From: Rhodopirellula bahusiensis
GTDB lineage: Bacteria; Planctomycetota; Planctomycetia; Pirellulales; Pirellulaceae
Direction: 5' to 3'
Length of the DNA stretch: 64,000 nucleotides
Assembly (NCBI RefSeq): GCF_002727185.1
Contig: NZ_NIZW01000028.1
Location: 1-64,000 of the forward strand
The position numbers and the translations under genes are program-made. Below the pieces are notes generated by a model. The model had not been told where the DNA came from, did not search any database, and was given only the letters and a program-made list of their open reading frames with translations. Below, in pieces: positions 10,057 through 63,216 of the stretch (position 1 is the first letter of the stretch; the number at the start of each line of letters is the position of its first letter).

Positions 10057-11514
10057 CTAGGTCGGTTTCACGATCTTCGTGTACGCGCGGCCTTCGTTTT
10101 GGTCGATGCGTTCGGGGCGGCCCTTGTGCAAGTAAATCAGCTTTCGATGATCGATGCCCATCAAGTGCAAGATCGTGGAGTGGATGTCGTGCACATGCAA
10201 GCGATCTTCCACGGCGTGCAGGCCGAGATTGTCGGTGGTGCCGTAGGCTTGGCCGCCTTGCACGCCGCCGCCGGCCATCCACATCGAAAAACCAGTCGGG
10301 TTGTGGTCGCGGCCGTCACCTTTTTCGCTCATCGGCGTCCGTCCAAATTCGCCGCCCCAAACGATCAACGTTTGGTCGAGCAGTCCGCGTTGCTTGAGGT
10401 CTTGGATCAATCCCGCGACGGGCAAGTCCATTCCTCGGCACATGCGTGTGTGATTGGATTCAATTTTGGAGTGAGCGTCCCACTTGCTGCCCGCACCGTG
10501 ATAGCACTGTACGAACCGGACACCACGTTCGACCAAGCGACGAGCCATCAAAAGTTGCCGCCCGTAGTCGGCGGTTTCCTTTTGGTCGAGCCCGTACAGG
10601 GATCTGGTTTGCTCGGTCTCTTGGGACAAATCGACTGCATCGGGAGCGTGCGATTGCATTTGGTAGGCGAGTTCGAAGCTGCGAATCCGCGCCTCCAATT
10701 CGCTGTTGTCGGAACGTTCGGCAGCGTGGGCCTGATTCAGATCACTCAAGAAGTCGAGTGCCGCTCGTTGTTGCGAACCCGCGACATGTTTGGGGCGGTC
10801 CAGGTTGGTGAACGGTGACCCGGTGCGCTGCATCGTGGTGCCCTGATAGATCGCGGGCATGAAGCCTGCACCCCAGTTGCGGGCCCCGTTGATGACTCGG
10901 CCTTTGCCTTCTTGCATGACAACGAACGCGGGCAGGTTTTCGTTCTCGGTGCCCATGCCATAGGTCACCCAACTGCCCAGCGAAGGACGCCCAGCGAATT
11001 GGCTGCCCGTGTTCATTTGGCAGATGCCGCCGGAGTGATTGATGCCGTTGGTCCAGCAAGAACGAATGACGGCCAACTCGTCCGCCATCTTCGCGGTGTG
11101 CGGCAACCAATCCGAAATCCAAAGTCCGCCTTCGCCGTGTTGGGCCCACTTTCGCTGGGTCGGCATGATCGGTGAATCGAATTCACCCATGGCAGTCAGC
11201 ACGCGACCGAAGCTCTCTGGGATTGGCTTGCCCGCCAACTTGTCGAGATCAGGTTTCGGATCAAACGTGTCCAGGTGGCTAGGGCCGCCATCCATGAACA
11301 GAAAGATCACGCTTTTAGCTTTGGCTGGATGATGAACCAGCTTCGATGCCAGCGGCGAGGGAGCCTCCGACGATGGGCCTGCCGATGCGGTGTCTTGCAG
11401 CAGGCCTGCCAATGCCAGTGAACCAAAGCCGCCACCACATTGCAGCAGCATTTCTCTGCGCGACGAAAGTCGTGGTGAGAAGCCGTTGGTTGAGGCGGAT
11501 GTTTCAATCGACAT
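10057..11514 (-). CDS. DUF1501 protein (sulfatase-fold, Tat-exported)
   Basis: A 485-residue DUF1501 protein. The N-terminus carries a twin-arginine type signal (R19-R20 followed by EMLLQCGGGFGSLALAGLL), so it is expected to be exported folded. The body has the alkaline-phosphatase-like fold signatures usual in this family: FLFMDGGPSHLDTFDPKPDL near 95-115, GEFGRTPMSEKGDGRDHNP near 395-415 and a C-terminal HLMGIDHRKLIYLHKG. Its biochemical role is not established. The gene overlaps the 3' end of the upstream cytochrome/DUF1549 gene by 11 bases, so the two are co-translated, which is the near-universal planctomycete arrangement for these families. Confidence 0.92.
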   Translation of the reverse strand: MSIETSASTNGFSPRLSSRREMLLQCGGGFGSLALAGLLQDTASAGPSSEAPSPLASKLVHHPAKAKSVIFLFMDGGPSHLDTFDPKPDLDKLAGKPIPESFGRVLTAMGEFDSPIMPTQRKWAQHGEGGLWISDWLPHTAKMADELAVIRSCWTNGINHSGGICQMNTGSQFAGRPSLGSWVTYGMGTENENLPAFVVMQEGKGRVINGARNWGAGFMPAIYQGTTMQRTGSPFTNLDRPKHVAGSQQRAALDFLSDLNQAHAAERSDNSELEARIRSFELAYQMQSHAPDAVDLSQETEQTRSLYGLDQKETADYGRQLLMARRLVERGVRFVQCYHGAGSKWDAHSKIESNHTRMCRGMDLPVAGLIQDLKQRGLLDQTLIVWGGEFGRTPMSEKGDGRDHNPTGFSMWMAGGGVQGGQAYGTTDNLGLHAVEDRLHVHDIHSTILHLMGIDHRKLIYLHKGRPERIDQNEGRAYTKIVKPT

Positions 11515-13924: not shown

Positions 13925-14271
13925 TTGCGTTTGCCTCGATGTGTCGCGTCGGGAAGAAACGCTTGCGACGAACGACCTTTTCAGGCATCGCTTGCGAGTC
14001 TTAGCCCGGGTGATGACTTTGTGGTGGGAAGCATGCCGCTTGAACACGGGCCGGGAGAACTCGCGTTTGCCATTGGAACGCTGGCCAACCGCATGCCTGC
14101 GTGTGCGATCCGGCTCCTTAGCAAAAGCTGGGGGGAAACAAATCGACAACGCTCCCCTAGTCTATCGAGTAGTGACCCTCTCATGGGGCGATCGAAGCAA
14201 CTTTTCGGCCTCTTTCTTAAGTAGGAGAAATGTGCGAAACGGAGGGTTAGCGGCCATTTGGCTCGCACGTA
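13925..14271. other. intergenic gap, no gene seen
   Basis: These 347 bases lie upstream of the cytochrome/DUF1501 pair and downstream of the SGNH gene. They probably contain the promoter of the pair, but I see no convincing promoter boxes, hairpin or repeat. If translation of the cytochrome gene began at 14149, most of this gap would be coding. Confidence 0.5.
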
Positions 14272-45267: not shown

Positions 45268-46806
45268 ATGTTCGTGTTTCTTGGAACCGCGAACGTTTAC
45301 CCGCCTCTCTCCCGCTGGATTCTCGTGCACCGATTCCTTGTTGCTCTGATCGCTTGTTGCATCACTTCGTCCGTGATGGCTCAGTCCCCTCCGAACATCG
45401 TTCTGATCATCGCGGATGACATGAACTGGGACGATTGCGGAGCCTATGGTCATCCGGCGATTCGAACTCCCAATATCGACGGCCTGGCAGCGGAAGGCAT
45501 GCGTTTCGAACACGCTTACCTGACCACGAATTCATGCAGCCCATCCCGTGCGAGCATCATCACGGGCAAGTATCCCCACAACACGGGCGCGGAACAGTTG
45601 CACTGGCCGTTGCCGGAATCAAGCGACACATTCGTGGGGCGATTGCAGTCAGCGGGCTATTACACCGCCGCGGCTGGCAAGTGGCACATGGGTGACGCTG
45701 TTCGCGATCACTTCGACAACATCTACGAAGCCTCGACGGCCGGTTTTGTACTCCCCAGTGGAAAAGACGGGCAACCTGCGAAGATGATCGCGGCGCAGCC
45801 CAGTGGTTGCGAAGATTGGGAACGAGCTTGCGAGGAACGTCCCAAGGATCAACCGTTTTTCCTGTGGTTGGCCGCTCTGGACCCGCACCGCGAATACAAC
45901 GACGGTGCCCTGGATCCACCTCACACACACGACGACGTGATCGTTCCGCCGCACCTTCCAGACGTTCCTGATGTCCGCGAAGACCTGCGTCTTTACTATG
46001 ACGAGATCGGGCGTCTCGATTCCTACGTCGGCAAGGTGATGCGAAAACTGGCCGAACAGGGCGTCGCTGACAACACGGTCGTTCTCTTCATCAGCGACAA
46101 CGGCCGTCCGTTCCCTCGTGACAAGACATCGCTCTACGACGGTGGAATCCGAACCCCGTGGATCGTTCGCTATCCCGACCAAGTCAAGGCGGGCCAGACG
46201 ACGAAGGCTTTGGTCAGCGCGGTTGACATTGGTGCCACGTTCTTGGATTTGGCTGGCGTGGAAGGCAGCGAAACATTCTGCGCTTCGAGCCAAAGCTTTG
46301 TTCCGGTTTTGAAAGACAGCACGCAATCGCATCGCGAATTCGCTTTTGCGGAAGATCACTGGCACGACTACGAGGACCATGCTCGCGCCGTGGCGACCCA
46401 GCAATACAAGTTGATTCGCAATGACTACGTCGACCTCCCTCCAACACCATCCGCTGACGCGGGACGGGGCCTGACTTGGCAAGCCATGCTTCGTTTGTAT
46501 GACGCGGGAGAACTCACGCCCGAACAATCGGCTTGTTTCACTGCACCTCGTGCAAAGTGGGAACTTTATGATCTGCAACGCGACCCCGGCGAACAGCACA
46601 ATCGCTTCGAGGACCCGGCCTATCACTCGGTACGCACGCGATTGCAAACCGCACTCACCGATTGGACGCAGCGAACGGGCGATTACTTGCCAAGTCGACG
46701 AACACCCGATGAGTTTGACCGTGTGACGGGCGAGCCAGATCACTCGGTCCGTGTCCGTCCACGTCCATCCAAGAAAGAGATGTTCGGGACAAACGGCGCC
46801 TACTGA
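45268..46806 (+). CDS. exported type I sulfatase (N-sulphoglucosamine-sulfatase-like)
   Basis: A 512-residue sulfatase. The metal pair is in LIIADDMNW and the formylglycine site is C90-S-P-S-R94. The sequence around it ([25 protein letters not shown]) and the GKWHMGD site resemble heparan N-sulfatase-type S1 enzymes, though that does not fix the substrate here. The signal sequence is best explained if translation starts at the GTG at 45325 ([19 protein letters not shown]); the ATG at 45268 gives a 20-residue lead. It is the first gene of the plus-strand agaran-like cluster, with the agarase 49 bases downstream. Confidence 0.9.
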
Positions 46807-46855
46807 AGTGGTCCGTGGTCGCTGTCTTTTCCAACAATTTCTTCGAAAGTCTTTG

Positions 46856-47767
46856 ATGTTTGGTTCATTTTGTTGCCGGGCCAGTTGGTCCGCTGCCTTT
46901 GTGATGGTTTGTTTCGCTGCGTCCGTGTCGCTTGCGGAAGATTGGGACGGACTGGAAGTTCCGGCTTCGGCAGAATCGGGCACGACGTGGAAGTTGCACC
47001 CGGTGTCGGATGATTTCAACTACGTCGCGAAACCGACGGGAAAGCCGAAAGAATTCACCAAGCGTTGGAACGATTCGTTCATCAATGCTTGGAAAGGACC
47101 TGGTCGCACAGAATTCAATTCCGGGCATTCCTACGTCAACGATGGGCACCTCGGCATCCATGCGTCACGGAAGCCAGGGACGGACCTCGTCTACACCGGC
47201 GCGGTCTCTTCCAAAGAGACGTTCCGCTATCCGCTTTATGTCGAAGCCAGTGTCAAGATCAGCGGCCTCGTTTTGGCTTCGAACGTTTGGATGTTGAGCC
47301 CGGACTCGACCGAAGAAATCGACATCATCGAAGCCTATGGGAGCCAACGTCCGGGCCAGGAATGGACCGCTCAGCGGTTGCACATCAGTCATCACGTGTT
47401 CATCCGTGAGCCGTTCCAAGACTACCAGCCAACCGATGAAGGTTCTTGGTACGAGGACGGGTCGAATTGGCGGGAAGAATTCCACCGGGCCGGTGTGTTT
47501 TGGAAAGACCCATGGAATTTGGAGTACTACATCGACGGAAAAAAGGTCCGCACAGTTTCGGGTGAATCGATCATCGATCCGCATGGCTACACCAAAGGCA
47601 ATGGACTCAGCAAACCCATGCATTTGATTATCGATGCCGAAGATCAGACCTGGCGATCCGACAAAGGAATCACGCCAACGGACAGTGAGCTCGCCGATTT
47701 GACCAAATCCATCATGTGGGTCGACTGGATTCGCGTCTACGAGGGCGTCCCATCCGAAAACGATTGA
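46856..47767 (+). CDS. GH16 beta-agarase/porphyranase-like enzyme
   Basis: A 303-residue exported glycoside hydrolase of family 16. The catalytic motif E154-I-D156-I-I-E159 (in [11 protein letters not shown]) is intact: nucleophile and acid/base glutamates with the helper Asp. Neighbouring sequences [27 protein letters not shown] and VDWIRVYEG closely match agarase/porphyranase subfamilies, so the likely substrate is an agaran or porphyran backbone, cut at beta-1,4 links. It has a signal peptide ([16 protein letters not shown]), so it acts outside the cytoplasm. Start: the ATG at 46856 directly precedes the signal peptide. There is no carbohydrate-binding module. It lies between two sulfatases with gaps of about 50 bases, so it is probably co-transcribed. 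Confidence 0.9.
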
Positions 47768-47819
47768 TCCCATCCCACATCACCACCAACACATTCCCAC
47801 TCAATCACTTGGTTCTCAA

Positions 47820-49370
47820 ATGAAAACATTCCTATCATTCGCACTGATCTTCGCGGTCAGTGTCGTCAATGGTTCCGCTGCCTTCGCGGACGACCGTCCC
47901 AATGTGCTTTGGATCACCATTGAAGATTGGTCCCCCGATTTGTCGTGCTACGGCACAAGGGGGATCCAGACACCCAATGTCGACAAGCTGGCATCCGAAG
48001 GGATTCGGTACGAACGAGCCTTCACAACTTCGCCGGTCTGTTCGACTTCGCGTTCAGCGATGATGACGGGGTTCCACCAGAACTTCATTGGTGCCAACCA
48101 GCATCGGGAATATGACAAGCAACCGTTGCCGCACGGGATTCGGCCAATCCCGCATCTGTTTGCCGATGCGGGCTACTTCACCGCATTGATGAGCTACAAA
48201 ACTGACTGCAATTTCTTGCCAGACCAGAAGAACGAACTGTTTGATGGCACCGATTGGAACCAACGAGCCGACGGGCAGCCTTTCTTTGCTCGGATCACGT
48301 TCGGTGGCACTCACCGTCAATGGAAACGCGACCCGCAACGGCCCATCGCGATCGAAGATGTTGAGTTGCCGCCCTACTATCCCGACACGCCTTTTGTCAG
48401 ACGTGATTGGGCCAACGGTTTGGAGCAGATGCAATTGGTTGACCGTGAGGTCGGCGGGATACTGAAACGACTCAGCGAGGAAGGTCTCGCTGACAACACG
48501 ATTGTTTTCTTCGTCGGAGACCATGGTCGGTGCCACATTCGCGGCAAGCAGTTTCTTTACGACGGTGGCATTCGCATTCCCATGATCATGCGTTGGCCTG
48601 GCAAGGTTTCGCCGGGTGAAGTCAGCGATGACATGGTGATGTCGATCGACATCTGCGCGACGATTTTGGAAGCTGCTGGGATCGATGCCCCCGTGCCTCT
48701 GCATGGAAAGAATCTGTTGAGCGGAGAGGTTCGGAATCGTCAGTATGTCTTTGCCGCGCGAGACAAAATGGACGAAACGCATGATGCGATGCGAGCGATC
48801 CGGTCCGCCGACTTCAAGCTGATTCACAACTTGATGCCTGAGCGAGCGTACTGCCAATACAACCAGTACAAGGAAGGGGCTTACCCGGTGCTGGCTGAAA
48901 TGAACGTCATGCACATGCGAGGCGAACTCACACCCGAACAAGCGGCTTTCTTTGCTCCGTCAAAACCAGAGTTGGAACTGTACGATCTGCGAACGGATCC
49001 GCACGAGGTCCACAATGTCGTCGACGATCCCAAGTACGCCAATGTTCGAGAAGAAATGCTACGGGAACTCAAGCGATGGCGTCGTGAAGTGATTCAAGAC
49101 AAAGGTGTGAGCGACGAGTTTCGTGCGCTGGACGTCTATCCGGAAACGCTGCCTGCGGGGTCTGTCGATGAGTGGGTTCACGCGAATGCGGGCAAGTACG
49201 ACTACGAGAAATTCGGATGGCCAAGTTGGTATCCGACTCGTTCGTTGGAACAGTGGGAATCGGCTCGCAAGGCCTGGGAGCCCTGGGTTTTTCGTGACGT
49301 GAATTCGAAGATGCAACGGCCGGGCGTGACCATCCGTGAACAAGAGCGAAACAAGGCGAAACGGAAGTGA
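47820..49370 (+). CDS. sulfatase with atypical CSTSR active-site motif
   Basis: A 516-residue exported S1-type sulfatase: signal peptide MKTFLSFALIFAVSVVNGSAAFA, then the N-terminal metal region in which the usual DD reads E-D (TIEDWSPD). The active-site motif is C74-S-T-S-R78, where the third position is Thr instead of Pro/Ala in CxPxR. Later sulfatase landmarks (FVGDHGR, KQFLYDGGIRIPMIMRW, LYDLRTDPHEVHN) are intact, so the gene is not decaying. Formylglycine maturation may be less efficient, or a different FGE may be used. The ATG at 47820 fits a signal peptide. It lies 52 bases after the agarase. Confidence 0.87.
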   Translation: MKTFLSFALIFAVSVVNGSAAFADDRPNVLWITIEDWSPDLSCYGTRGIQTPNVDKLASEGIRYERAFTTSPVCSTSRSAMMTGFHQNFIGANQHREYDKQPLPHGIRPIPHLFADAGYFTALMSYKTDCNFLPDQKNELFDGTDWNQRADGQPFFARITFGGTHRQWKRDPQRPIAIEDVELPPYYPDTPFVRRDWANGLEQMQLVDREVGGILKRLSEEGLADNTIVFFVGDHGRCHIRGKQFLYDGGIRIPMIMRWPGKVSPGEVSDDMVMSIDICATILEAAGIDAPVPLHGKNLLSGEVRNRQYVFAARDKMDETHDAMRAIRSADFKLIHNLMPERAYCQYNQYKEGAYPVLAEMNVMHMRGELTPEQAAFFAPSKPELELYDLRTDPHEVHNVVDDPKYANVREEMLRELKRWRREVIQDKGVSDEFRALDVYPETLPAGSVDEWVHANAGKYDYEKFGWPSWYPTRSLEQWESARKAWEPWVFRDVNSKMQRPGVTIREQERNKAKRK

Positions 49371-49462
49371 CACTCACGCGGCGCGACTCATTTGTTGGCT
49401 CGCTCGTTCGATGAGTGACGCATTTCACACCCACATTCTCAGCCCTCCACGATTGATTGTTC

Positions 49463-50836
49463 ATGAGCTTTCCCCCTGCCTCGAAGTCTCGCCGAGATCT
49501 TTTGATGACCGCCGGATTTGTCTCCATGGCAACGCTGACTCCGTGGGCCTTGCCGGTTCGGCAATCACTTGCCAAGTCACCGAATGAACGCAAACGGTTT
49601 GCGTTGATCGGCGTCGGCGGAAATGGGACACGGACTTCGCCCGTTGGGAAAGAATTTGCTGACTTGGTCGCGCTGTGTGATGTCGACGAGGAACATCTGA
49701 AGCATGGCAACGAATTGCTGTGTGATGGCAAAGCCGAATTGTTTCGTGACTACCGCGAAGTGCTTTCTCGTGATGACATTGACTTGGTTCAGATTTCAAC
49801 GCCTGATCACTGGCACGCGAAAATCTTGATTGAGGCGATGTTGGCGGGCAAAGATGCGTACTGTGAAAAACCGCTGACGTTGACGATCGACGAAGGAAAG
49901 TTGGTCCGGAAGGTTCAACAGCAAACCGGACGTGTCGTTCAAGTCGGAACGCAGCAACGCAGCAGTTTCGACAAGTTCAATCGTGCTCTGGCAATCATCG
50001 CGGAAGGTCGCCTGGGCAAACTCAAACGCTTGATCGTCGGAATCGACGCGGGTGGATGGAGTCCCGAGATTCCCGTCGCCGACGTGCCCAAAGGATTGGA
50101 CTGGGATCGTTGGCTGGGACCCGGTCCTAAAATGGAATATCGCTATGCGAAGGACGCCAAGCGAGCGGACAAGAACTACACCAATGGGCACACGCACTTC
50201 CGTTGGTGGTACGAACACTCCGGAGGCAAATTGACCGACTGGGGAGCCCACCATGTCGACATCGCGATGCTGGGGATCGCCGCGGCGGGGCAGAACAACG
50301 ACCCCGTTTCGGTTGCCGGGACCGCGAAACATGACGTGGAGTTTCGCGACGGAATGCCGCTGCAGAACAATCGCTACAACACCGCACGAGCGTTTGATCT
50401 TCGCGTCGCTTTCGCGGATGGCGATGTCGAGATGAACATTCGCCACGACGTCGACAATGGGATTTTGTTTGAAGGCGAACGAGGCCGGATCTTTGTCAAT
50501 CGCGGCAAGTTGGTTGGCAAACCCGTTGAAGACTTGGAATCGAACCCGCTCGCCGAAGATGCGATTTCGAAGATTTATCGCGGGATGCCCATGGAAGGCA
50601 ATGACCGCCCTGCACACTGGGCGAACTTCATGCATGCGATTGACAATCGAGTGCTGCCGATTTCCGACGTGCATTCCCACATGAAGATGCTCAACGTGTG
50701 TCACTTGGCCGGCATCTGTTGTCGGTTGGGACGCAAAGTCGAGTGGGATCAAGTGACGGAAAGTGTCGTTGGCGATGAACAGGCCGCTGCGATGATGAAG
50801 CGACCCTATCGGTCTGGTTATGAAATCGACATGTGA
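49463..50836 (+). CDS. Gfo/Idh/MocA-family oxidoreductase, Tat-exported
   Basis: A 457-residue NAD(P)-dependent oxidoreductase. The N-terminus bears a twin-arginine signal (S-R10-R11-DLLMTAGF), so it is probably exported with its cofactor bound, or anchored. The Rossmann motif is IGVGGNG and the family's catalytic lysine motif is EKPL (YCEKPLTLT); the later WGAHHVDIAMLG is the family histidine segment. Start: the ATG at 49463; a TTG at 49457 would add two residues. In this family, members oxidise a sugar C3 hydroxyl to a 3-keto group; the following DUF1080 gene (68 bases downstream) is of the 3-keto-glycoside hydrolase type, so a coupled two-step cleavage is plausible. Confidence 0.89.
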   Translation: MSFPPASKSRRDLLMTAGFVSMATLTPWALPVRQSLAKSPNERKRFALIGVGGNGTRTSPVGKEFADLVALCDVDEEHLKHGNELLCDGKAELFRDYREVLSRDDIDLVQISTPDHWHAKILIEAMLAGKDAYCEKPLTLTIDEGKLVRKVQQQTGRVVQVGTQQRSSFDKFNRALAIIAEGRLGKLKRLIVGIDAGGWSPEIPVADVPKGLDWDRWLGPGPKMEYRYAKDAKRADKNYTNGHTHFRWWYEHSGGKLTDWGAHHVDIAMLGIAAAGQNNDPVSVAGTAKHDVEFRDGMPLQNNRYNTARAFDLRVAFADGDVEMNIRHDVDNGILFEGERGRIFVNRGKLVGKPVEDLESNPLAEDAISKIYRGMPMEGNDRPAHWANFMHAIDNRVLPISDVHSHMKMLNVCHLAGICCRLGRKVEWDQVTESVVGDEQAAAMMKRPYRSGYEIDM

Positions 50837-50904
50837 GGCGTTTGCCTTCCCCGCATGATGCGCCTCCCTATGAAGTTGTCTTCCCCGATCGAGTCACGTG
50901 TTCG

Positions 50905-51921
50905 ATGTCAATGAAAACTCGCTCCAAAGTGCCGGTCTGTTTTTGTGCTCTCTTTTTGCTGGTTGTTGGTCCTGTGTGCGGCGCAATGGCCGCGGACACG
51001 ACCGCAAAAACGAAACCGAAGATTCAGCCATATCCCAATGCCGTCGTCTGGACCAACGCTGCGAAAGCTCAAGCGGAATTCGATGGCTTTGAGTTTGTCG
51101 GCGAATTTGTTCGAGACGATCAAGCGATGCAGGTCACTCCGTCTGAGGGCCGGTTCTACGTTTCGGTGTACGACGGTGGATTTCCCGGCACAGGTTGGGA
51201 TGGCAGTCCTGTCGTGCATGAGTGGTCGGATCGCGAAGGAATCGAGTCGCGTGTTGTGGGCTGGCAAAAGATTGATCGCAGTGCATCGGTTGTCGGAAAG
51301 AAGCCGCCGGCTGACGCGATCGTGTTGTTCGATGGCACGAACACGAACGCTTGGAAGAACGGCAAGATCGAGGATGGCGTTCTCAAAGCGGGAGCAAGAA
51401 CCAAAGCAACGTTTCAGGATTTCCGACTGTACCTTGAATTTCAAATTCCGCTGCAACCCGAGCCACCGATCAGTCATCCGCATCGCGGCAACAGTGGCGT
51501 TTTCGCGGTCGGTGCCTATGAGGTGCAGATCTCTGACAACTTTGGATTGGACCCCAGTCCCGAGGCATGGCAGGACATGGTCATGTTGAAACCCGTCAAC
51601 ACGTGGTGCGGCAGCATCTACGGAATTCGCGAAGCCGATTGGAATGTTTGCTTGCCACCGCTGGCTTGGCAGAGCATGGAAATCGACTTCACCGCGGCTC
51701 GATTCAAGGACGGAAAGAAGATCCAGTCCGCAGTGATCTCGGTGACCCAGAATGGTGTCCTGATTCACGACCGGGTGGAACTGCCCGAGGGAACGGGGGG
51801 CGGGCCAGCAGGTCCAAGACCCGAAGTGGCGGAAGGTCCGATCTATCTTCAGAACCATGGCAATCCCAACCGGTTTCGCAACATCTGGATCGTTCCAGGC
51901 TCGTCCACGGCACATCAGTGA
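50905..51921 (+). CDS. DUF1080 protein (3-keto-disaccharide hydrolase-like)
   Basis: A 338-residue exported protein: signal peptide (VPVCFCALFLLVVGPVCGAMA), a lead domain to about 135, then a DUF1080 lectin-fold domain. Its signatures are IVLFDGTNTNAW, and RGNSGVFAVGAYEVQISD, with the GNSGV/YEVQI core typical of 3-keto-glycoside hydrolase/lyase members. Start: the ATG at 50905 (an ATG at 50911 is equally possible); an upstream GTG at 50833 overlaps the previous stop but lies before the signal peptide. Its likely partner is the oxidoreductase just upstream; the substrate is unproven. Confidence 0.83.
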   Translation: MSMKTRSKVPVCFCALFLLVVGPVCGAMAADTTAKTKPKIQPYPNAVVWTNAAKAQAEFDGFEFVGEFVRDDQAMQVTPSEGRFYVSVYDGGFPGTGWDGSPVVHEWSDREGIESRVVGWQKIDRSASVVGKKPPADAIVLFDGTNTNAWKNGKIEDGVLKAGARTKATFQDFRLYLEFQIPLQPEPPISHPHRGNSGVFAVGAYEVQISDNFGLDPSPEAWQDMVMLKPVNTWCGSIYGIREADWNVCLPPLAWQSMEIDFTAARFKDGKKIQSAVISVTQNGVLIHDRVELPEGTGGGPAGPRPEVAEGPIYLQNHGNPNRFRNIWIVPGSSTAHQ

Positions 51922-51993
51922 ATGAGGCGATATCCCGTCCTTGTCATTCGTTTCCTTCCATTGACCTTCCTTCTCGTTTTCCAAACCCAAACT

Positions 51994-52713
51994 ATGTTTC
52001 GACCCATCCTTTCCGTAGCGTTTGTGACGACTTCCTTGTTGACACATTCAACGCTCGTCGCCGACGAAGCATCCTCGGGATTGCCCGAAACCAAAGTTTT
52101 GTTTGAGGATGACTTCGAAGGTCGTTCGACGCTGGGCGAAGGCTATCGGACCGGGCGAGGAATGGAGGCCGGATGGAGCATCCGCGATGGTGTCTTGTTC
52201 GGCAAACAAATTCGGGACGACCATGGCTCCACCATGCGAAAGCAAATGAAGTTTGGCGATCTTCATGTGTCGTTTGACTTCCGGTTCAATGGCGGAAGCC
52301 GCTTCAACTTTGTGATCGACGACAACAATGAAGAATCCGTGCATGCCGGGCATGTGGCTCGTGCATCACTGACACCAAAACGGATGATGATCAGCGATGA
52401 CAAATTCGGTTTGATGAATCTGGAAGTTCGCGAGAAACGAAAGACGAAATCGCTGCCGACGGAACAGCAGAAAGAATTGGAGGACCTGTTGGCTCGCACG
52501 CAAGCCTCCGCCGCCATCCAAGCCAAGCCGGGCACTTGGCATCACTTGGAACTGACCATCCATGGGACCGTGATGACTGTTCACCTCGATGGCAAAGAGG
52601 TGGTCTCGTTGGATTCTACCGGTTTCGCTCATCCGACGAAGACTCAGTTCGGAATGACGGTGAATGGAAGCAGCATCGATTTCGACAACCTTTGTGTTTT
52701 CGCGACCGAGTGA
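51994..52713 (+). CDS. small exported lectin-fold protein (DUF1080-like)
   Basis: A 239-residue protein with a signal peptide (MFRPILSVAFVTTSLLTHSTLVA) and a concanavalin-like beta-sandwich: opening VLFEDDFEGRSTLGEGYR, closing TWHHLELTIHGTVMTVHLDGKEV and FDNLCVF. I place it near DUF1080/GH16-like folds but see no catalytic motif such as ExDxxE, so it may bind a sugar chain. The ATG at 51922, immediately after the previous stop, is also possible and would add a second hydrophobic stretch. It lies between the other DUF1080 gene and a sulfatase. Confidence 0.68.
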   Translation: MFRPILSVAFVTTSLLTHSTLVADEASSGLPETKVLFEDDFEGRSTLGEGYRTGRGMEAGWSIRDGVLFGKQIRDDHGSTMRKQMKFGDLHVSFDFRFNGGSRFNFVIDDNNEESVHAGHVARASLTPKRMMISDDKFGLMNLEVREKRKTKSLPTEQQKELEDLLARTQASAAIQAKPGTWHHLELTIHGTVMTVHLDGKEVVSLDSTGFAHPTKTQFGMTVNGSSIDFDNLCVFATE

Positions 52714-52774
52714 ACTTGGTTTGTTTCCCGCTCTTTCTCCCCTGCCCTGCTCTTCCCTTCATAAACCCGAACTC

Positions 52775-54448
52775 ATGCGAATCCACTCTTTGAAAAGACT
52801 TGCACCAATCTTGCTGTTTTTCGCGGCGCTGTGTGCTACCAGCCTGCCTGCTGCGGATTCTCGACCGAACTTTTTATTCGTTCTGACGGACGACCAGTCC
52901 TACGGAATGATGGGCTGCGATGGAAACGAGTTGACGCGGACGCCGAACATCGACCAGTTGGCTCGCGAAGGCGTGTTCTTTGATCGAGCCTATGTGACCA
53001 GTGCGATCTGCACTCCGAGTCGGATTTCGATCTTTCTCAGCCAGTACGAACGCAAGCACGGTGTGAATTTCAATTCAGGAACCAGTGTCGCGCCCGAGGC
53101 ATGGGCGAAGTCCTATCCTGTGATCATGCGAGAGAACGGGTACTACACCGGCTATGTCGGAAAGAACCACGCGCCGATTGGAAAGGGCGGCTACAACAGC
53201 AGTTTGATGGAAGAGTCGTTTGATTACTTCTACGCCGGACACGGGCACATCCGTTTCTATCCCAAAGACGTCCACGAGATCTTTGAGGGGGCGGCCTACG
53301 ACACGCAAGTCGAAATCGTCAACGAAGGTGCTCAGGATTTTATGTCGTATGAACATCGCTTGGACGGTGCGGTGCGATTCCTGGACGAACGTCCGGCGGA
53401 CAAACCGTTTTGCTTGAGCATCTGTTTGAACCTGCCGCACAGTGCGGGAACGGGCACCATGCAACAGCGAGAAAGCGATGATGAAATCTACAAGTCGCTC
53501 TACCGTGACATCGAGATTCCTTTGCCGGAGCACTACGTTGCGAAGGACGAGATTGAGACGCCACGTTTGCCAGCGGATGTGTTGCGAGCGAGTGAGCGGC
53601 AGGCCAGCTACAACTTTGTCGACACTCCCGAGGCGTTGAAAGAACGCACCATTCGGCAGATGCAATCCATGACCGGGATCGATCGTTTGATCGGAAACCT
53701 ACGCACCAAGCTCGAGACAGAAGGCGTGGACGACAACACGATCATCATCTTCTGTTCCGACCACGGATTGTTCATGGGGCAACATGGTCTTGGTGGGAAA
53801 GCGTTGTGCTACGAGCAGACGACGCATGTGCCGATGATCGTCTTCGATCCAGAACTGCCAACTGTACTGCAAGGGGCTCGTTGCAACGAGTTGGTTCAAA
53901 CGATCGACATCGCTGCGACGATGCTAGATCTGGCTGAGATTGAAAAGCCTGACACCTTTCAAGGCCTGTCGTTGCGGCCACTTTTGAGCGGCCAAGGCGG
54001 CGCGATTCGTGATCATGTTTTCACCGAAAACCTGTGGGTGACACACTTTGGCAACCCTCGCATTGAGGCGGTGCAGGACAAGCGTTGGAAATACATCCGG
54101 TACTACCACAACGATTGTGTTCCCGCCTCGGTCAAGATTCAGGTGGCCAAGGATCTTGGTATCAAGTCGTCCACCATGCTGTATGGCATTCACGACAATG
54201 AAATCGCGGTGTATCGGAACCATGCCGAGGCATCGTTGCGAGGTGAGGAACCGATTTGCGAAGAGTTGTTTGATTTGGAAAGTGATCCCGACGAGCTGAA
54301 CAATTTAATCGACGATCCTGCCGCGAAGACACAGTTGGAAGAGCTTCGAGTCGTTTGGAAGCAGCAGCTCACGAAAGCTCGCGGCAAAGGATTTCCTGCT
54401 GTGCTTCGCTACACCGTCGACAGCGAAAAAGACTACAAGTCGAAGTGA
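52775..54448 (+). CDS. exported type I sulfatase
   Basis: A 557-residue sulfatase with a signal peptide ([21 protein letters not shown]). Metal pair LTDDQSYG and a canonical site C79-T-P-S-R83. The later [16 protein letters not shown] and ENLWVTHFG segments resemble choline-sulfatase/iduronate-2-sulfatase-like S1 families. Start: the ATG at 52775, since the upstream 37 codons do not precede a signal. It is followed by the fusion gene, 47 bases away on the same strand. Confidence 0.9.
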
Positions 54449-54495
54449 ATTCATTGGCCGTCGTTTCAGTTTCAATTCCCACCTTGCTGCCTGCT

Positions 54496-56928
54496 ATGTT
54501 GAACCGAATAAAGTTTCTATCCTCGATGTTGGTCGGCCTTTTGGTTCTGACCGCATCCAGTGTCGATGCCAAGGAACGTCCGAACATTGTGTTGATCGTT
54601 GCCGATGACCTTGGCTACAGCGACGTTGGTTTCAATGGCTGCAAGGAGATTCCCACACCGAGATTGGACGAGTTGGCGGGGGAAGGCGTGGTCTTCACCA
54701 ACGGCTACGCTTCGCATCCCTATTGCAGTCCCAGCCGCGCGGGGTTGTTGACGGGAAGGTATCAACAGCGATTCGGGCATGAGGGCAACCCAGAACCGGA
54801 TCCGCAGTGGCACGGTGACGACACGCCGGGGATGCCGCTCTCGGAAACGACGCTTGCGGATGCTTTGAAAGAAGCTGGATACGTCACCGGAGCAGTCGGC
54901 AAGTGGCACCTGGGCGACGCGAAACCGTTCTGGCCCAATCGCCGTGGATTCGATGAGTGGTTTGGCTTCAGTGGAGGCGGATTGAGCTATTGGGGAGACT
55001 TGGGAAGAAAAGATCCTTTGCTCGGTGTGCATCGCGGTGATGAACCGGTCGATCGCAAGTCGTTGACGTATTTGACGGATGACTTTTCAACGGAAGCGGT
55101 CAAGTTCATTCAGCGTCACGAGACGGAACCGTTCTTTTTGTACTTGGCGTACAACGCACCGCATGCTCCCGACCAAGCCACCCGGGCTCATCTGCAGAAG
55201 ACAGCACACATCGAGTACGGAGGTCGAGCGGTTTACGGAGCGATGGTCGCTGGGATGGACGAAGGCATTGGGCGAGTCGTTGACCAAATTCGCGAATCGG
55301 AGTTGGGCGACAACACGTTGATTGTCTTTTACAGCGACAACGGTGGGCGGCGTGAGCACGCGATGAATTTGCCGTACCGAGGTCACAAGGGCATGCTGTT
55401 TGAAGGCGGTATTCGGGTGCCGTTCTTGGTTTCTTGGCCAGGGACTTTGCCGAGCGGAGTTCGAGAGCAATCGCCGATCACGGCACTCGATGTCTTTCCT
55501 ACCGTCCTCGCCGCAGCAGGATTGGACCCGACCAAGAATGAAAAGCTGGACGGCCAAAACTTGTTGCCCGGTTTGACCGACGCGGGAACGGAGTTTCCCA
55601 AACGGCCGTTGTTTTGGCGTTACTCGATGGGCGATGATTCGTATGGCTATGCGGTTCGCGACGGGAATTGGAAGTTGGTTGACAGTCGCTACAAGAACCG
55701 AAAGCTGTTGTTTGATTTGGCGAACGACCCTTGGGAACGCGAAGACTTGGCCGAACAGCATCCTGAACAAGTGGATCGGCTATCGCGGATGATTGAGGCC
55801 TGGGATGCCGGCAATGTGCCGCCGAAGTGGCATGATGCTCACGGCGTCAATGTCAGGAAAGAAGAGGACTCACGAACAGAGGCTGTTGAAAAAGCCGCTC
55901 GAGGCGAACGTGCGCGGCCGGATTTGGATTTGAACTCGATGATTGAGCCGGTGCCAGCGAGAGCGAAGTTCATCGACGAGGATTTCTACATCTGGGGCGG
56001 CAGTATGGTGCGTGACGTCGACGGCACCTGCCATCTTTTCTACAGTCGCTGGCCGCGAGAGTCGGGACACAATGCTTGGGTCACCCATTCGGAGGTTGCT
56101 CACGCGGTGTCGGATGATCCGCTGGGGCCATACCACTTCGTCGATGTAGCTTTGCCCGTTCGAGGCGAAAAACCGTGGGACGGCATGTGCACTCACAACC
56201 CGACCGTGCATGAGTTCGATGGGAAGTACTATCTCTACTACATGGGGAACACGGGTGACGGTGAACCGACGAGAAAGCTGAATATGGTTCATCGCAACAA
56301 TCAACGCATTGGTGTCGCGATTGCCGATCACCCCAACGGACCATGGAAACGTTTTGACGAGCCACTGATCGACATCAGCGAAGATGCCTCGGCGTCGGAT
56401 GCATTGATGGTGAGCAACCCATCGATCTTGCGTCGGGATGATGGGACGTTTGTGTTGATTTACAAAGCGGTCGGCAAGAAAAGACGCATGCCGTTTGGAG
56501 GCCCGGTCGTTCACCTTGCCGCAACTTCTCAGTCACCGACGGGACCGTTTCGAAAGCAGAACAAACCGTTGTTCACCGCACCGGGAGTCGCCTTTCCAGC
56601 GGAAGACCCTTACATCTGGTTCCAAGATGGCACGTGCTGGGCGATCGTCAACGACCACAAGGGACACTTCAACGGAACCGGCAGTGACTCCTTGGCATTG
56701 TTTCAGTCGGTCGATGGTTTGCACTGGGAACCGGCCAATTCACCGTTGGTGACGGAACGCATCATCCCATGGGCGGACGGAACTCAGCAGTCCGTGCACC
56801 GTCTTGAACGCCCGCAACTGTACCTCGAAGACGGCAAACCAACCGTGCTATTTTGTGCGGCGGAGGAAACCAAGGAGAAGCTGCATTCGTTCAACGTGCA
56901 CTTGCCTCTGCGTCAGACGGGTGACTGA
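54496..56928 (+). CDS. sulfatase fused to a five-bladed-propeller glycosidase
   Basis: An 809-residue fusion. Signal peptide 1-25; a sulfatase from about 29 to 445, with VADD and the canonical site C77-S-P-S-R81 ([14 protein letters not shown]); a charged linker 445-485 ([22 protein letters not shown]); and from 486 a GH43/GH117-type propeller ([60 protein letters not shown]). The tandem suggests that sulfate removal and glycosidic cleavage on the same substrate are coupled outside the cytoplasm. A frameshift is not needed: the reading frame is continuous through the junction. Start: the ATG at 54496. It is the last gene of the plus-strand cluster. The propeller family (43, 117 or related) is not decided from sequence alone. 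Confidence 0.86.
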
Positions 56929-57368: not shown

Positions 57369-58787
57369 TCAAGCAAGGATGTCGTGAAGCACGTTCCCGT
57401 GAACATCGGTGAGTCGAAAATCGCGACCACCGCTTCGGAAGGTCAACTGTTCGTGGTCGATGCCAAGCTGATGCAGAATTGTTGCCCAAAGGTCATAAAA
57501 CGTGCACGGGTTTTCGACGGCATGGTATCCCAGTTCGTCCGTTGCGCCGTAGACCGTTCCGCCTTTCACGCCGCCTCCTGCCAACCACATGCTGAAGCCG
57601 AACGGATTGTGATCGCGGCCAGCGGATCCTTGCGAGAAGGGCGTTCTGCCGAATTCTCCGGTGAACACGACCAAGGTTTCGTCGAGTAATCCGCGAGCGT
57701 CTAGGTCTTGGATCAATCCAGCGATCGGACGATCGACCTCATGTGCCATGGCGCGATGTCCTGTTTCGAGGTTGCCATGTTGATCCCAAGGATGCGAGGA
57801 GGCGGGGGCAACCGTCGCTGGCGAAAGGCACGACAGTTCGACAAAGCGGACGCCCTTTTCAACCAACTTGCGAGCCAGCAGGGCTTGTTTCCCATAGGCA
57901 GCGGTCATCGGGTCAGGATCATCGATGCCATACAGCCTGTGCGTCGCGGCAGTTTCATCGGAGAGGTCGCAGACCTCAGGAACAGAAGTCTGCATGCGAA
58001 ACGCGGTCTCATAGTTCTTGATCGCGGCGTCGACCTGTTGGTTGCGTGATTGAGCTGCGAAGGATTGATCGATTTGGGCGACGAAGTCAAGCTGTCGCCG
58101 CTGCATGTCGGCTGCCTGAGCCGGTTGGATGTGAGGGATCGGCTCTTGGCGGTCGGATTGTAGGATGGATGCTTGGTGTTGGGCGGGCAAGTAGCCGCTG
58201 CTGAACACGCCGGATCCGCCCAAGGGTGGAAGGCCGCCTTCGCTTTGCAGCACGACAAAGCTGGGCAGGTTCTCATTGGCCGTTCCGAGCCCATAGCTGA
58301 TCCAGGCACCTGCGCTGGGGTGACCTAGAAATGGGAATCCAGTGTGAGCAACATAGTTTCCTTGTGAATGTTCGTTCACTGTGGTTGTCGCGGAACGAAC
58401 TACCGCCAAGTGATCGGCACACTTTCCAATTTCGGGGAACAGGTCGCTGACTTCCAGTCCGCTCTCGCCGTACCGATTGAATGCGAAAGGGCTGCCAAAG
58501 ATGGAACCATTGTTGTTGAACTGAGTCTTTTCGATTTTGCCGGGCATCGCTTGGCCATGCCGTTTTTTCAGATCCGGTTTAGGGTCAAAGGAATCCACAT
58601 GCGAGACTCCACCCGACATGTAACACAGGATGACCTTGGTCGCTTTCGGTTGGATCGATAGGTTTGCCGGAGTCGCATGAAGGCGGTGTTGCAAACTCGA
58701 CAGCGCCAGCATGCCAAAACCACTGCTGCAGGATTTCAACCAGTGACGACGAGAGGCGAGATAGTGCGGGGAAGGCTCAGCGGACAT
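57369..58787 (-). CDS. DUF1501 protein (Tat-exported)
   Basis: A 472-residue DUF1501 protein, the second in the window. The N-terminus has a Tat-type signal (R13-R14[18 protein letters not shown]). The core has [21 protein letters not shown], then [23 protein letters not shown] and the C-terminal [10 protein letters not shown]. It differs from the copy at 10057-11514 but shares the same landmarks. It overlaps the upstream cytochrome gene by 11 bases (ATG at 58785-58787, upstream stop at 58777-58779). Confidence 0.92.
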
Positions 58788-61700
58788 AGAGGAACTCCTT
58801 CATGTTGATCAGTGAATGCGTGAAATCGATCCAGTGCTGTTGCGGTTCCGGGAACGCAGGGCTCGTGTCTCGTTGCCGCTGAAGTTCCGCCTGTTGTGCT
58901 TCGAGCGTGAGCAGGCGATCTCGCGTTGCCGGGGACAGAGAGTCAACGATGGCTTGACGCGAAACGATGTGTGTCGCGTTTTGGGCCAGGGATTTGACTT
59001 GCTCGGATGACAGTTCCTGATCGTAAAGTCTCGCGGAAAATAGGCGTCCCTTCAGCATTCGACCTTTCGAAAGGCCGGTGCCGTGACGCATGCCGAAGAT
59101 CACGTGTGAGCGATCGGCTGGAAATGACTGCACCGTCGTTTGATAAGCCTTTCCGTAGGCCTGACCATTGCGATAGCAGGTGATCTTTCCATCCTTGCCG
59201 TAAGTGATCACCAGATGGACCGGTTCGGTGTTGGCGACGTCCTCGGCGGTGCCCTGGAAACTCTGTGTCCGTTTGCTGTGGTCGCTTCCGCTCATCCAGC
59301 GTTGCGGTTCCCGTTCAGCGAACACGATGGCATCGAACAGCACACCATCCGTCGTTTGCACCGAGATCGCACCACCACCGGTTTGCTGGAGGTCATCCAA
59401 TTGCACGACGACTTCCAGCGATTTGGTGGACAGTGTCACGGGCAAGGGATCCGAGGCCGCCCAGCCATTGCCATCGACAATCAATGCCCCGTCCTGGATC
59501 GCGGCCGAACCATGCAGTGTCAGGTCCTTCGCGGTGGCGCCGGATTCGGACAGTCGTTGAAAGTCCCATTCCTTCAGCGGACTTGGACGGGAAGGCGAAT
59601 CAGGAGCGGTCGTGGATGGTTGCTGCAAATCAGCGTCATGAAGTTCGCTCTTCGCTGCGATCAATTTCTGGCGAGCGGGAAGAAGGATCGCATCGATCTC
59701 GCGGGTGGCCTCAACTATTTGTTGTTCGAGCCTCGAAGTCTTTTGGCGGAGTTTGGCGTGGTCCAATTCGCTTTGATGCAAGAACTGCTCGGCCGCAGCG
59801 ACTTGCGTCGGAGTCGGTTCTCGTCCGAAATGCTGTCGCCAACTGGCTCGGATTTTGGCGGGAGTGTCTTTCAGCGATGGATCCGCCAATAGGCTCCGGG
59901 CGGAAGACTTTGCAGTTCCCACCACGAACGGGCTGTTCAGCATCAGCAAGGCTTGAGCCGGAACGTTGGTCACATCGCGACGGCCTTTGCACGAAAACGG
60001 GACCGGGGCATCGAAGCTGGCCAGAAACGGATCCATGTTGTTGCGGATCACGCGGACGTAGACCGACCGGCGATCGCTGTTCCCCGCGACGGAACCTTTC
60101 GGCGGAGTTGTCTGCAAACGACCCGATACATACAGCAATGAATCGCGAATCGCTTCGGCATCCAATCGAGTGGTCGTTCGATAGGAGAGCAACCGATTTT
60201 TGGGGTCAATTTGTTGTGCCGTTTCGGTTGGCTGGGACTGCTGTCTCCATGTCATGGAGGTCACCATTTGGCGGATCATCGTTTTGAGTGACCAACCGTT
60301 TTGGCGGAACTGAGTGGCGAGGTAGTCCAACAGTTCTGGATGCGTTGGTTGGTCACCCAAGCGTCCAAAGTTGTCGGTCGTTGCCACAATGCCGCGGCCG
60401 AAAAGATGATGCCACAGGCGGTTGACCAGCACGCGAGTTGTCAGCGGGTTTTCATCCGCGATCAGGTCTTCCGCGAATTGGCTGCGCCCGCTGAGTTGCG
60501 TTTGATAGGGGGACGCATCAAACGCTTCCAGGAATCGTCGGGGAACCGGGACGCCGGGCTGTTTGTGGTCACCCCGAACGTACAACGCTTGGTCCTGTCC
60601 CTTCCACTCTGCGATGGTCGGAGCCCGCGTCGCGACAGGAATTTCCGCTTCGAGTTGGCGATAGCGTTCGATCAGCGGTTTGGTCTTGGGAAGCTGGGCC
60701 AGCGTATTGGGCAGGAGGTTGTGTTGTAAACACGCGTCCAACAGCAAGGATTGTGAATCGTCGATGGATTCGCTTTGCCAAGCCTTGATCGCTTCCGAGA
60801 TGACATCCTGGTAAAGCCTCGCGAGATCCTGCATCGATTGGATGTTTTTGGATTCTGCCGCTCGGAAAATCGGTGAGAGAGATTCGCGGAAGTCGACCGG
60901 TGGCTTTTGCTCTGCCGCGGTCACAATCGCTTGCCGAATGCCGAACCAAGATCGGTCGCTGTTTTTGACCAACAAAGGAGCGTCGCGGGCAGTGGCCAGT
61001 TCGATGTGTGCGTCATCGCCTTGCCAGTAACCTAGATTGAACTCCTGCCAGTGCCATTGTTTGGCCTTGGGGCCAGCCAAATTGTTGACCGGGTAAACCG
61101 TTCCGTTTCGCGGGTAGTTTTGGACCACATAACGATTGGATGCCTGGCCATCGCCAGCGATTTGCAACCATAAGCGCTGGCCAGCGCCCACGCGAAAGTC
61201 GGTGGATGTCAGCACACCAGGGAGTTTGTCGCTGAGAAGACCGGAAAAGATGCCCGCTGGATAGATCGCCCGAAGAGCAGCGTTGGGATCATCCACCGAC
61301 ACGGAAAACTCGCCTGGCGGTGTGGGGGTCGGTTGACGATCGGTGCTCGCGGGATCGGCGAGTCCACCACCATAGGCAAACCAATCGTTGGTGGGGTTGT
61401 TGTTGGTTGACTGGCTGTCGGCAAAGTTCCAGTGGTGGGAGAAGGTTTGCTCCGCATACTGACGCTGTTGTTCTTGCAACGTATCGTGCTCCTGAACCCG
61501 GCGTTGCCACGCTTCCTGGAATGACTTCCCTGCATCGATTTCATGTTGCAGGGAAGTCCAAAGGGCAACGAGATCGCGGGGTGGTTCAGATGGCTTCGGA
61601 TTCGCAGGCGTGTCCTGCAATCGAGAGGTGACTTGTGCCGCGTCGGTCGACCAGTCCGCAGTGATCGCGTCCCGAATGGACGATTTCAACTTTGTCAGTG

Positions 61701-62913
61701 AATCGCGGTGGAGGTTTAAACGCTGCGGCAAATCGATGGCCGCCCGGGCAGGCCGCGTGGAGCCAACGATTCCGGCAAGGGCGTAATAGTCGGCCTGGCT
61801 GATCGCATCGAATTTGTGGTTGTGGCAACGTGCACACGAGACGGTCAGTCCGAGCACTGCTTTGCTGACCACATCGATCGCATCGTCTGTGAATCGCACT
61901 CGCTCGTCCAAGGCATCGGTGGGAGCGAATCCGTGAAATACCATCCGCCAGTGGGCCGTTCCGATGATCGACTCATTGATCCCGAGTTCGGGATTGGTTC
62001 GTGGTTGCGCGAGTTGGTCCCCGGCGATGTGTTCTCGGATCAGTTGATCGGAGGGCACGTCAGCATTGATCGCGCGGATCAAGTAGTCGCGATACAAATC
62101 CGCTCCGACGATAGGCGGATCGCCTTCACTTCCGTGCGACTGAGCGTATCGAAACCAGTCCATCCAGTGGCGAGCCCAACGTTCGCCGAAATGGGGCGAG
62201 TCGAGCAGTCGATCGACAAGCTTTTCGTATGCGTCGGGTGAATCATCGTTCACGAAGGCATCGATTTGGGCCGGAGTCGGCGGCAATCCGATCAACGCGA
62301 AATGCAGCCTGCGGATCAGTGTCACTCGGTCAGCTTGCGGGGAAGGACTCAAACCGTTGGCGTGCATCTTGCGATACACAAATTGGTCGATCGGGTGGTT
62401 GGACCAATCTTGATCCAAGTCAGGAATGCGAACCTCGCGGATCGGTTGGAAACTCCACCACTTGGCACGCTTGTTTCGAATGGCTTCCCAAGACGTGGAC
62501 TTGGCGAGCATTTCCTTGGATGGCGGAGCGTCTCGTGGATCCGGTGCTCCCATGGTGATCCATTGTTCGAAGTCAGCGAGTATCGCGGGGCTCAACTTTT
62601 CGCCCCCTTCGGGCATTTCGAGTCCTTCGATTTCATGTCGCATCACTTGCAGCAAGAGACTGTTGCTGGAGGACTCCGCGATCGCTTTTCCTGACTGACC
62701 GCCAGTTCGCAGCGGTTCGTTCCAGTCCAAGGCAAACTCACCTTCCTGAGCCGAATCGCTGTTGTGACATTCATAGCAGTGTTCCACCAACACCGGCCGG
62801 ATTTTTGATTCGAAAAACTCCACTTGAGTGTCCGAGAGTCCTTCGTCGGCATGGGCTGCCACGACGCTCGCGGCGATCAAAAAACTCAATGCATACCAGC
62901 GGAGTGAATTCAT
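58777..62913 (-). CDS. large planctomycete cytochrome/DUF1549/DUF1553 protein with LamG-like domain
   Basis: A 1378-residue exported protein. Signal peptide ([18 protein letters not shown]), then a PSCyt1 haem motif C46-Y-E-C49-H50, then DUF1549 ([24 protein letters not shown] and the following [18 protein letters not shown]), an inserted beta-rich segment at about 485-650 (starting [19 protein letters not shown]), DUF1553 ([25 protein letters not shown], then [17 protein letters not shown]), and a C-terminal LamG/Concanavalin-like domain (about 1120-1330: [19 protein letters not shown] to [15 protein letters not shown]). It is longer than the copy at 11504-13924 because of the insert and the LamG part. 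Start: the ATG at 62911-62913. Confidence 0.9.
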
Positions 62914-63216
62914 TTGGACTGCCTGAGGGAGTGGCATCGCGGAGGGCAAGACACCGTGATTGGGTGTCATCGAGGTCGCGAGGAAGGCAACGAGGCGTTG
63001 TCACGACCCCGTGGGTGCGGTGGGGCAAATGGGTGGGAGGCATTGGGGGAGATGCCTTGGAGGTCGGATTGTACCCCGTGGGTGGAAGCGAAGCCACCAA
63101 ACGGTTTGATGCACTGTTTCCTGAGGCCGGTGCAGGAACGGAGCAACGGTATGTCGATCGCGTCCAACCTCTTGATCGATCAGAAGGAAACGTGCGTCTT
63201 CCACGAGACCATCGCT
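62914..63216. other. intergenic gap, no gene seen
   Basis: These 303 bases separate the large cytochrome gene from the alpha/beta hydrolase gene; both are on the minus strand. They are rich in G runs (for example around 63009-63050), but I see no hairpin, repeat or promoter that I can support. Confidence 0.4.

Follow-up and report, generated by a model that had tools for sequence, protein, structure and literature searches.

How a planctomycete might take apart the sulfated galactans of red algae is the question raised by a run of eight genes in Rhodopirellula bahusiensis, which lies in a stretch of 64,000 nucleotides (the window; positions 1 to 64,000 of contig NZ_NIZW01000028.1, assembly GCF_002727185.1) of a 7.78-Mb genome. 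The eight open reading frames (ORFs), g1 to g8, extend on the + strand from 45265/45268 to 56928 in the order sulfatase, glycoside hydrolase family 16 (GH16) enzyme, sulfatase, Gfo/Idh/MocA oxidoreductase, two PF06439 (DUF1080) proteins, sulfatase, and a sulfatase with a C-terminal propeller-type domain. With moderate confidence we regard these genes as a composite locus directed at the sulfated galactans of red algae, in which an agarase was added to an older cassette, and in which the exo-acting steps are possibly oxidative.

Composite history of the locus

The proteins of the window were compared with 20 fetched regions (tblastn, E 1e-8), and the agarase was sought in 13 genomes of the genus, that of the window included. 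In four congeners (L050-L053, from genomes G400, G397, G393, and G395) g1 and g3-g8 occur in the same order with no GH16 gene among them, and a fifth (L054, from G402) has the same cassette order except for g5, which is missing, likewise with no GH16. No such agarase was matched anywhere in these five genomes (0/5, E 1e-10). The spacing between g1 and g3 is 55-67 bases in the five cassette congeners (g1 stop codon included) compared with 1,016 in the window, and only the window's genome, among those compared, has an agarase between the two genes. The cassette genes share ~65-97% identity with their congener counterparts, with g1 matched in all five and g6 in all five at 65-89% identity. Because one gain costs fewer events than repeated losses, the agarase was most simply gained in the lineage of the window, by insertion into a cassette that would have been the older of the two. 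As for the surroundings, the C-terminal end of a giant ORF that lies upstream is matched beside the cassette in 4/5 congeners (in G397 through no more than a 38-residue piece), and the downstream DUF1501/PSCyt genes are matched in two (G400 and G393); in G395 neither flank was matched within the stretches fetched.

The GH16 agarase

Judged by its similarity to solved agarases and by its catalytic motif, g2 (46856..47767, +) is a GH16 β-agarase. It scores 28.1 bits against PF00722 (cut-off 22), its closest solved agarase is 3wz1 (413 bits, E 7.7e-123), followed by 5t9x, AgaB (1o4z), and AgaA, and β-porphyranase A (4ate) is matched at E 3.5e-14 only. The catalytic ExDxxE, which a sequence-only reading of this DNA had described as intact, is present as EIDIIE. 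There is no compositional sign of recent foreign origin in the gene, with a GC content of 54.3% and a third-position GC content of 65%, similar to the neighboring genes.

The gene is rare, being found in 2/13 genomes of the genus (the window's and G403, whose copy, L059, stands at an unrelated site with no cassette genes nearby) and in 2/392 sampled genomes of the phylum, the window's counted (E 1e-30). Among its Planctomycetes, PMC4807772 names, in the sections available to us, only R. sallentina and P. mikurensis as having GH16 agarases, and our scan of named sequences adds, besides the window, copies in two Pirellulaceae metagenome-assembled genomes (MAGs) and an Algisphaera MAG. R. sallentina is now placed by NCBI in Aporhodopirellula. 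That scan reduced 183 agarase relatives to 79 distinct loci, taken with flanks of up to 8 kb either way, and none of the 79 had a homologue of g4, g5, or g6 nearby (tblastn, E 1e-10, at which distant PF06439 proteins could escape). The sequence-only reading had joined agarase, sulfatases, and the oxidoreductase/DUF1080 pair in one locus; that they form a single evolved combination is not supported by these 79 loci or by the five agarase-free cassettes. A quick tree of 78 rows (the window gene, two copies from G356, and 75/79 named loci, four having been dropped by a filter on length, stops, and E-value) groups the window gene with R. sallentina and a Pirellulaceae MAG in an open fork with support 80. 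That fork sits in a starred set of 20 rows in which Pseudomonadota, Bacteroidota, Verrucomicrobiota, and Planctomycetota are mixed, and therefore no donor can be named.

The Gfo/Idh oxidoreductase and its orthologues

The g4 product (49457..50836, +) matches PF01408 (59.1 bits) and PF19051 (51.9 bits) and, on reading the sequence, has a twin-arginine-like N-terminus (SRRDLLM) and an EKP motif. A search of 60 related genomes gave 12 loci of at least 72% identity, window included, with the next tier at 58-59%; the homologues in the 11 other genomes are 72-97% identical to g4. Neighbors were counted at these loci with small home-made profiles, within ~10 kb and with the window counted. A sulfatase is present at 11/12 loci, the exception being G447, and PF06439 at 8/12. 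As a control, 10/43 other Gfo matches in the window's genome have a sulfatase within 10 kb (Fisher P 2.8e-5), a P value that overstates the evidence because one and the same cassette accounts for 6/12 loci and the two counts were made by different methods. The window genome's own Gfo paralogue (L068, 57% identity) has neither a sulfatase nor PF06439 within 10 kb.

The orthologues also lead to other red-algal galactan enzymes. In G394, G399, and G403 the gene next to the Gfo orthologue is a GH16, which in G399 is nearest the solved porphyranase 4awd (E 1.8e-104), and the G394 and G403 copies are 75% identical to that of G399. In G392 a run of 24 kb on one strand opens with a porphyranase-like GH16 (42-45% identical to the enzyme of G399) and closes with the orthologue; between them are also a second Gfo, a GH29, three PF06439 genes, a fusion of sulfatase and propeller, and further sulfatases. 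These congener loci (L055-L057, L174-L176) resemble that of the window in that sulfatases lie close to a Gfo of 77-79% identity, and differ in having a porphyranase or porphyranase-like GH16 in place of the agarase and, in 3/4, no PF06439 within ~10 kb. No porphyranase of the G399 type was found in the window's genome (E 1e-20). A role in galactan breakdown is thus separately supported, at the level of predicted function, by the Gfo orthologue standing beside porphyranases in congeners. At L056:11917-14373, adjoining the porphyranase, is an 818-residue protein with weak Pfam matches only (GH85_C, fn3), possibly a further galactan hydrolase.

The PF06439 proteins and a possible 3-keto route

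Under the composite reading, the agarase g2 would cut agar-type chains into oligosaccharides, exo-acting sulfatases would remove sulfates at positions 2, 4, and perhaps elsewhere, and an exported g4 would oxidize C3 of a galactosyl residue, with a PF06439 protein then cleaving the resulting keto-glycoside in place of the GH2 β-galactosidase of known agar pathways. The propeller domain of g8 might act on the linkage exposed by its fused sulfatase. A wider form of the proposal, which we offer only tentatively and as a whole, is a genus-wide exported route in which 3-keto galactosides produced by Gfo would be split by PF06439 proteins, in place of the GH2/GH117 exo-hydrolases of Bacteroidota. The propeller would then represent a new family of glycosidases that links the removal of sulfate with the breaking of a bond, and endo-enzymes, agarase or porphyranase, would be exchangeable add-ons.

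Pfam bears out the adjacency, noted from the sequence, of the Gfo/Idh gene and a DUF1080 gene. The product of the latter, g5 (50905..51921, +), is a clear member of PF06439 (118.2 bits, cut-off 26.8), which Pfam names "3-keto-disaccharide hydrolase"; it has one solved relative, 4qhz (E 7.5e-21), and it directly follows Gfo in five genomes, window included. The divergent second member, g6 (51922..52713, +), had not been recognized in the sequence-only reading; its 43.2 bits are weak and yet above the same cut-off, and it reaches 23.2 bits against laminin-G-type models, under their cut-off of 27.6. A Caulobacter DUF1080 protein has been proposed as a 3'-ketolactose hydrolase from fitness data in the part of PMC9007349 considered here. 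Also in favor, ordinary exo-hydrolases are few in the window's genome, with one GH2 match (41.4 bits, partial), no GH42 match, and one GH29, on another contig, in a search that did not extend to GH35 and other β-galactosidase families. Cleavage of 3-keto glycosides by g4 with a PF06439 protein is plausible as a prediction from these families. A broad 3-keto glycan pathway has reportedly been described by the Withers group, and it did not turn up in our literature search; nor did that search find anything joining Planctomycetota with gfo and sulfatase, and the idea may nonetheless have been published already.

Several observations weigh against the composite reading or its oxidative steps. The functions of all eight genes are predictions; the cassette of G402 lacks g5; and both flanks match those of the window in only 2/5 congeners. 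The 12 Gfo loci, as noted, are not independent, six of them being the same cassette, and at four (G394, G399, G403, and G414) the home-made profile finds no PF06439 within ~10 kb. The best NCBIfam model for g4, a glycoside 3-dehydrogenase (BT_2158_fam), has a cut-off of 750 bits, and g4 reaches 113.8, far below it. In the window's genome, which has 44 Gfo and 34 PF06439 matches, three Gfo genes have PF06439 within 2.5 kb (0.82 expected, P 0.05) and four within 5 kb (1.6 expected, P 0.08), so that adjacency alone is near chance and is a weak argument and no proof. PF06439 also includes a reported endo-xanthanase/lichenase, as described in the available part of PMC9007349. Among the sulfatases, g1 is nearest a human-type SGSH and g7 a rhamnosidase-linked sulfatase, neither of which indicates galactans, and g3 and g8 indicate carrageenans rather than agar.

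One alternative is that there is no 3-keto cleavage: Gfo would be a hydrolase of the GH109 kind or would dehydrogenate released sugars, and the PF06439 proteins would serve as binding modules or endo-hydrolases. We give it a considerable probability, somewhat short of even. The xanthanase/lichenase activity within the family is in its favor, as are the weak laminin-G likeness of g6, the four Gfo loci with no PF06439, and the scores of g4, which stay below the cut-off for each of the nine listed NCBIfam models (against the related BT_2159_fam, for example, 27.5 bits with a cut-off of 650). It sits less well with the clear family membership of g5, with its recurrence after Gfo, and with the identity of the best NCBIfam model.

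Sulfatases and the likely substrate

All four sulfatases predicted from the sequence are of the S1 type and match PF00884, at 134.9-222.1 bits (cut-off 25), and all four keep an intact formylglycine-type C-x-P/T-x-R motif (CSPSR, CSTSR, CTPSR, and CSPSR in gene order). The first, g1 (45268..46806, +; 178.7 bits), is SGSH/S1_8-like, with 4mhx (SGSH, 178.3 bits) as best solved relative and then the S1_8A structure 9bb9 (165.1 bits). The second, g3 (47820..49370, +), is far closer to 9bb9 (E 1.5e-105, 357 bits), the best chain not labeled S1_8 scoring 121 bits, and its CSTSR aligns with the CSTAR of the solved enzyme. In the portions of PMC12549532 available to us, S1_8A is a galactose-2-sulfate sulfatase of the λ-carrageenan pathway, with formylglycine reported at position 82 (fGly82). 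The third, g7 (52775..54448, +; 155.8 bits), is nearest 6hr5, listed as an α-L-rhamnosidase/sulfatase (GH78; E 2.8e-62). The sulfatase part of g8 (54496..55869, +) is nearest 6bia (E 3.9e-96), followed by the ι-carrageenan sulfatase 6b0j and by 9hh3 (S1-19); the same portions of PMC12549532 name 6bia as S1_19A and list the S1_19 carrageenan sulfatases as 4S. The prediction of a sulfated-galactan locus is supported, in that two of the four sulfatases are nearest carrageenan sulfatases and that, in other genomes, the Gfo orthologue occurs together with GH16 porphyranases and with sulfatases.

The relatives of g3 and g8, together with the five agarase-free cassettes, suggest a further possibility, a doubtful one in our estimate, that the older cassette acts on carrageenans or hybrid galactans with 2S and 4S galactose and that the agarase is a passenger sharing the site. 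The link of the Gfo orthologue to a porphyranase or porphyranase-like GH16 in four other congeners argues against it, and no carrageenase was recognized among the Pfam-scanned neighbors, in a scan not aimed at carrageenases; moreover, sulfatase subfamily may indicate the position of the sulfate better than the polymer. Ordinary turnover of a sulfatase cluster, with neighbors shuffled by rearrangement and no joint pathway, is unlikely, since seven genes are kept in order in four congeners and all but g5 in the fifth, at ~65-97% identity, and the same gene families recur in G392, even though planctomycete sulfatase clusters show high turnover and mixed ancestry (PMC4807772, in the sections available to us), the propeller is cut off or interrupted in 3/5 cassette congeners, and the flanks differ in 3/5.

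The propeller domain of g8

The composite reading assigns a role to a domain that, like g6, was an addition to the first account of the locus, namely the region fused to the last sulfatase (55870..56928, +). It matches PF04616 at 44.8 bits (cut-off 32.2) and appears to be distant kin of GH117 and GH43, with a propeller fold inferred from these relatives; a structure prediction made without an alignment had a mean predicted local distance difference test (pLDDT) score of 32.6. A profile was built from 27 sequences of 16 genomes, leaving aside L053 and L013, whose rows contain a stop within the matched range, and any second copy of a place already represented. Its top match is the GH117 chain 3p2n (E 3e-21), and the first six chains are anhydro-galactosidases or kin, followed by GH43. 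The catalytic acids of GH117, which we take to be D97, D252, and E310 in 3p2n, face G/C, N, and D in the propeller alignment, the first of them at the alignment edge. Four other residues, E245, D246, E313, and R314 (numbered from 55870), are identical in 27/27 rows. The domain thus seems to be nearest GH117 but to be without its catalytic acids.

Among the cassette congeners, the fused frame is open in G397 and G402; in G395 a stop interrupts it at aligned residue 70, and in G400 and G393 it is cut off. GH43/GH117 matches inside planctomycete sulfatases were already noted in PMC4807772, as far as its sections considered here go. The fusion in the 24-kb run of G392 (L175:6612-9506) has a propeller 53% identical to that of g8 and a sulfatase half with no BLAST match to that of g8, which suggests that the propeller has joined sulfatases more than once. 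Propeller homologues in L066 (G287) and L067 (G121) stand in open frames of 954 and 960 residues, and from these lengths they may also be fused proteins; in G121 the propeller is immediately followed, on its own strand, by a g8-like sulfatase match, so that the two stand in the opposite order to g8.

Comparison with known systems

Three described systems share features with the locus, each as reported in the part of its source considered here. The agarose polysaccharide utilization locus (PUL) of Bacteroides uniformis NP1 (PMC5849685) likewise joins a GH16 β-agarase and sulfatases, but it was inserted whole and has GH86, GH117, GH2, and SusC/D-like genes, none of which are among the eight genes here, whereas the Gfo/PF06439 set and the sulfatase-propeller fusion belong to the present locus. 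The λ-carrageenan cascade of Pseudoalteromonas distincta U2A (PMC12549532) also has an S1_8-type sulfatase in a galactan locus, but it uses GH150, GH110, and GH2, with no such genes among the eight. In the 3'-ketolactose route of Caulobacter (PMC9007349), dehydrogenase and DUF1080 genes are likewise near each other, though LacABC is a three-component dehydrogenase, while here the candidate is a single Gfo/Idh protein, with a sulfated galactan as its presumed substrate. As the sequence-only reading had said, a SusC/SusD pair, the mark of a SusC/D-type PUL, is absent from the eight genes and, by Pfam, from 10 further ORFs of the window, the genome itself not having been searched for SusC/D or TonB. 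Overall, the locus looks like a planctomycete galactan locus with an endo-enzyme add-on, whose exo-steps may be oxidative.

Gene layout and neighboring genes

ORF calls and Pfam confirm the eight same-strand genes that had been described. Spacings of 50-90 bases had been given for them, which is roughly right for most gaps (g1-g2 49, g2-g3 52, g3-g4 86, g4-g5 ~68, g6-g7 ~61, and g7-g8 ~47 bases) and wrong for g5 and g6, which abut (0 bases). Directly upstream, at 24937-44994 (+), lies the giant ORF, a single frame of 6,685 residues with many calcium-binding-type GGxGxD repeats seen by eye. A planctomycete DUF1501 and PSCyt-type gene pair is found by Pfam at 10057-14149 (-), and downstream, at 57369-62970 (-), there is presumably a second such pair, as we label it from its sequence.

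Biological meaning

Even if the oxidative step should prove false, a sulfatase cassette has seemingly gained a polymer-cutting enzyme, and the close congeners provide natural controls with and without the agarase. If the step is true, the 3-keto route for small glycosides such as lactose would be widened to take in a major sulfated seaweed polysaccharide, and the numerous Gfo and DUF1080 genes of the planctomycete would acquire a testable role.

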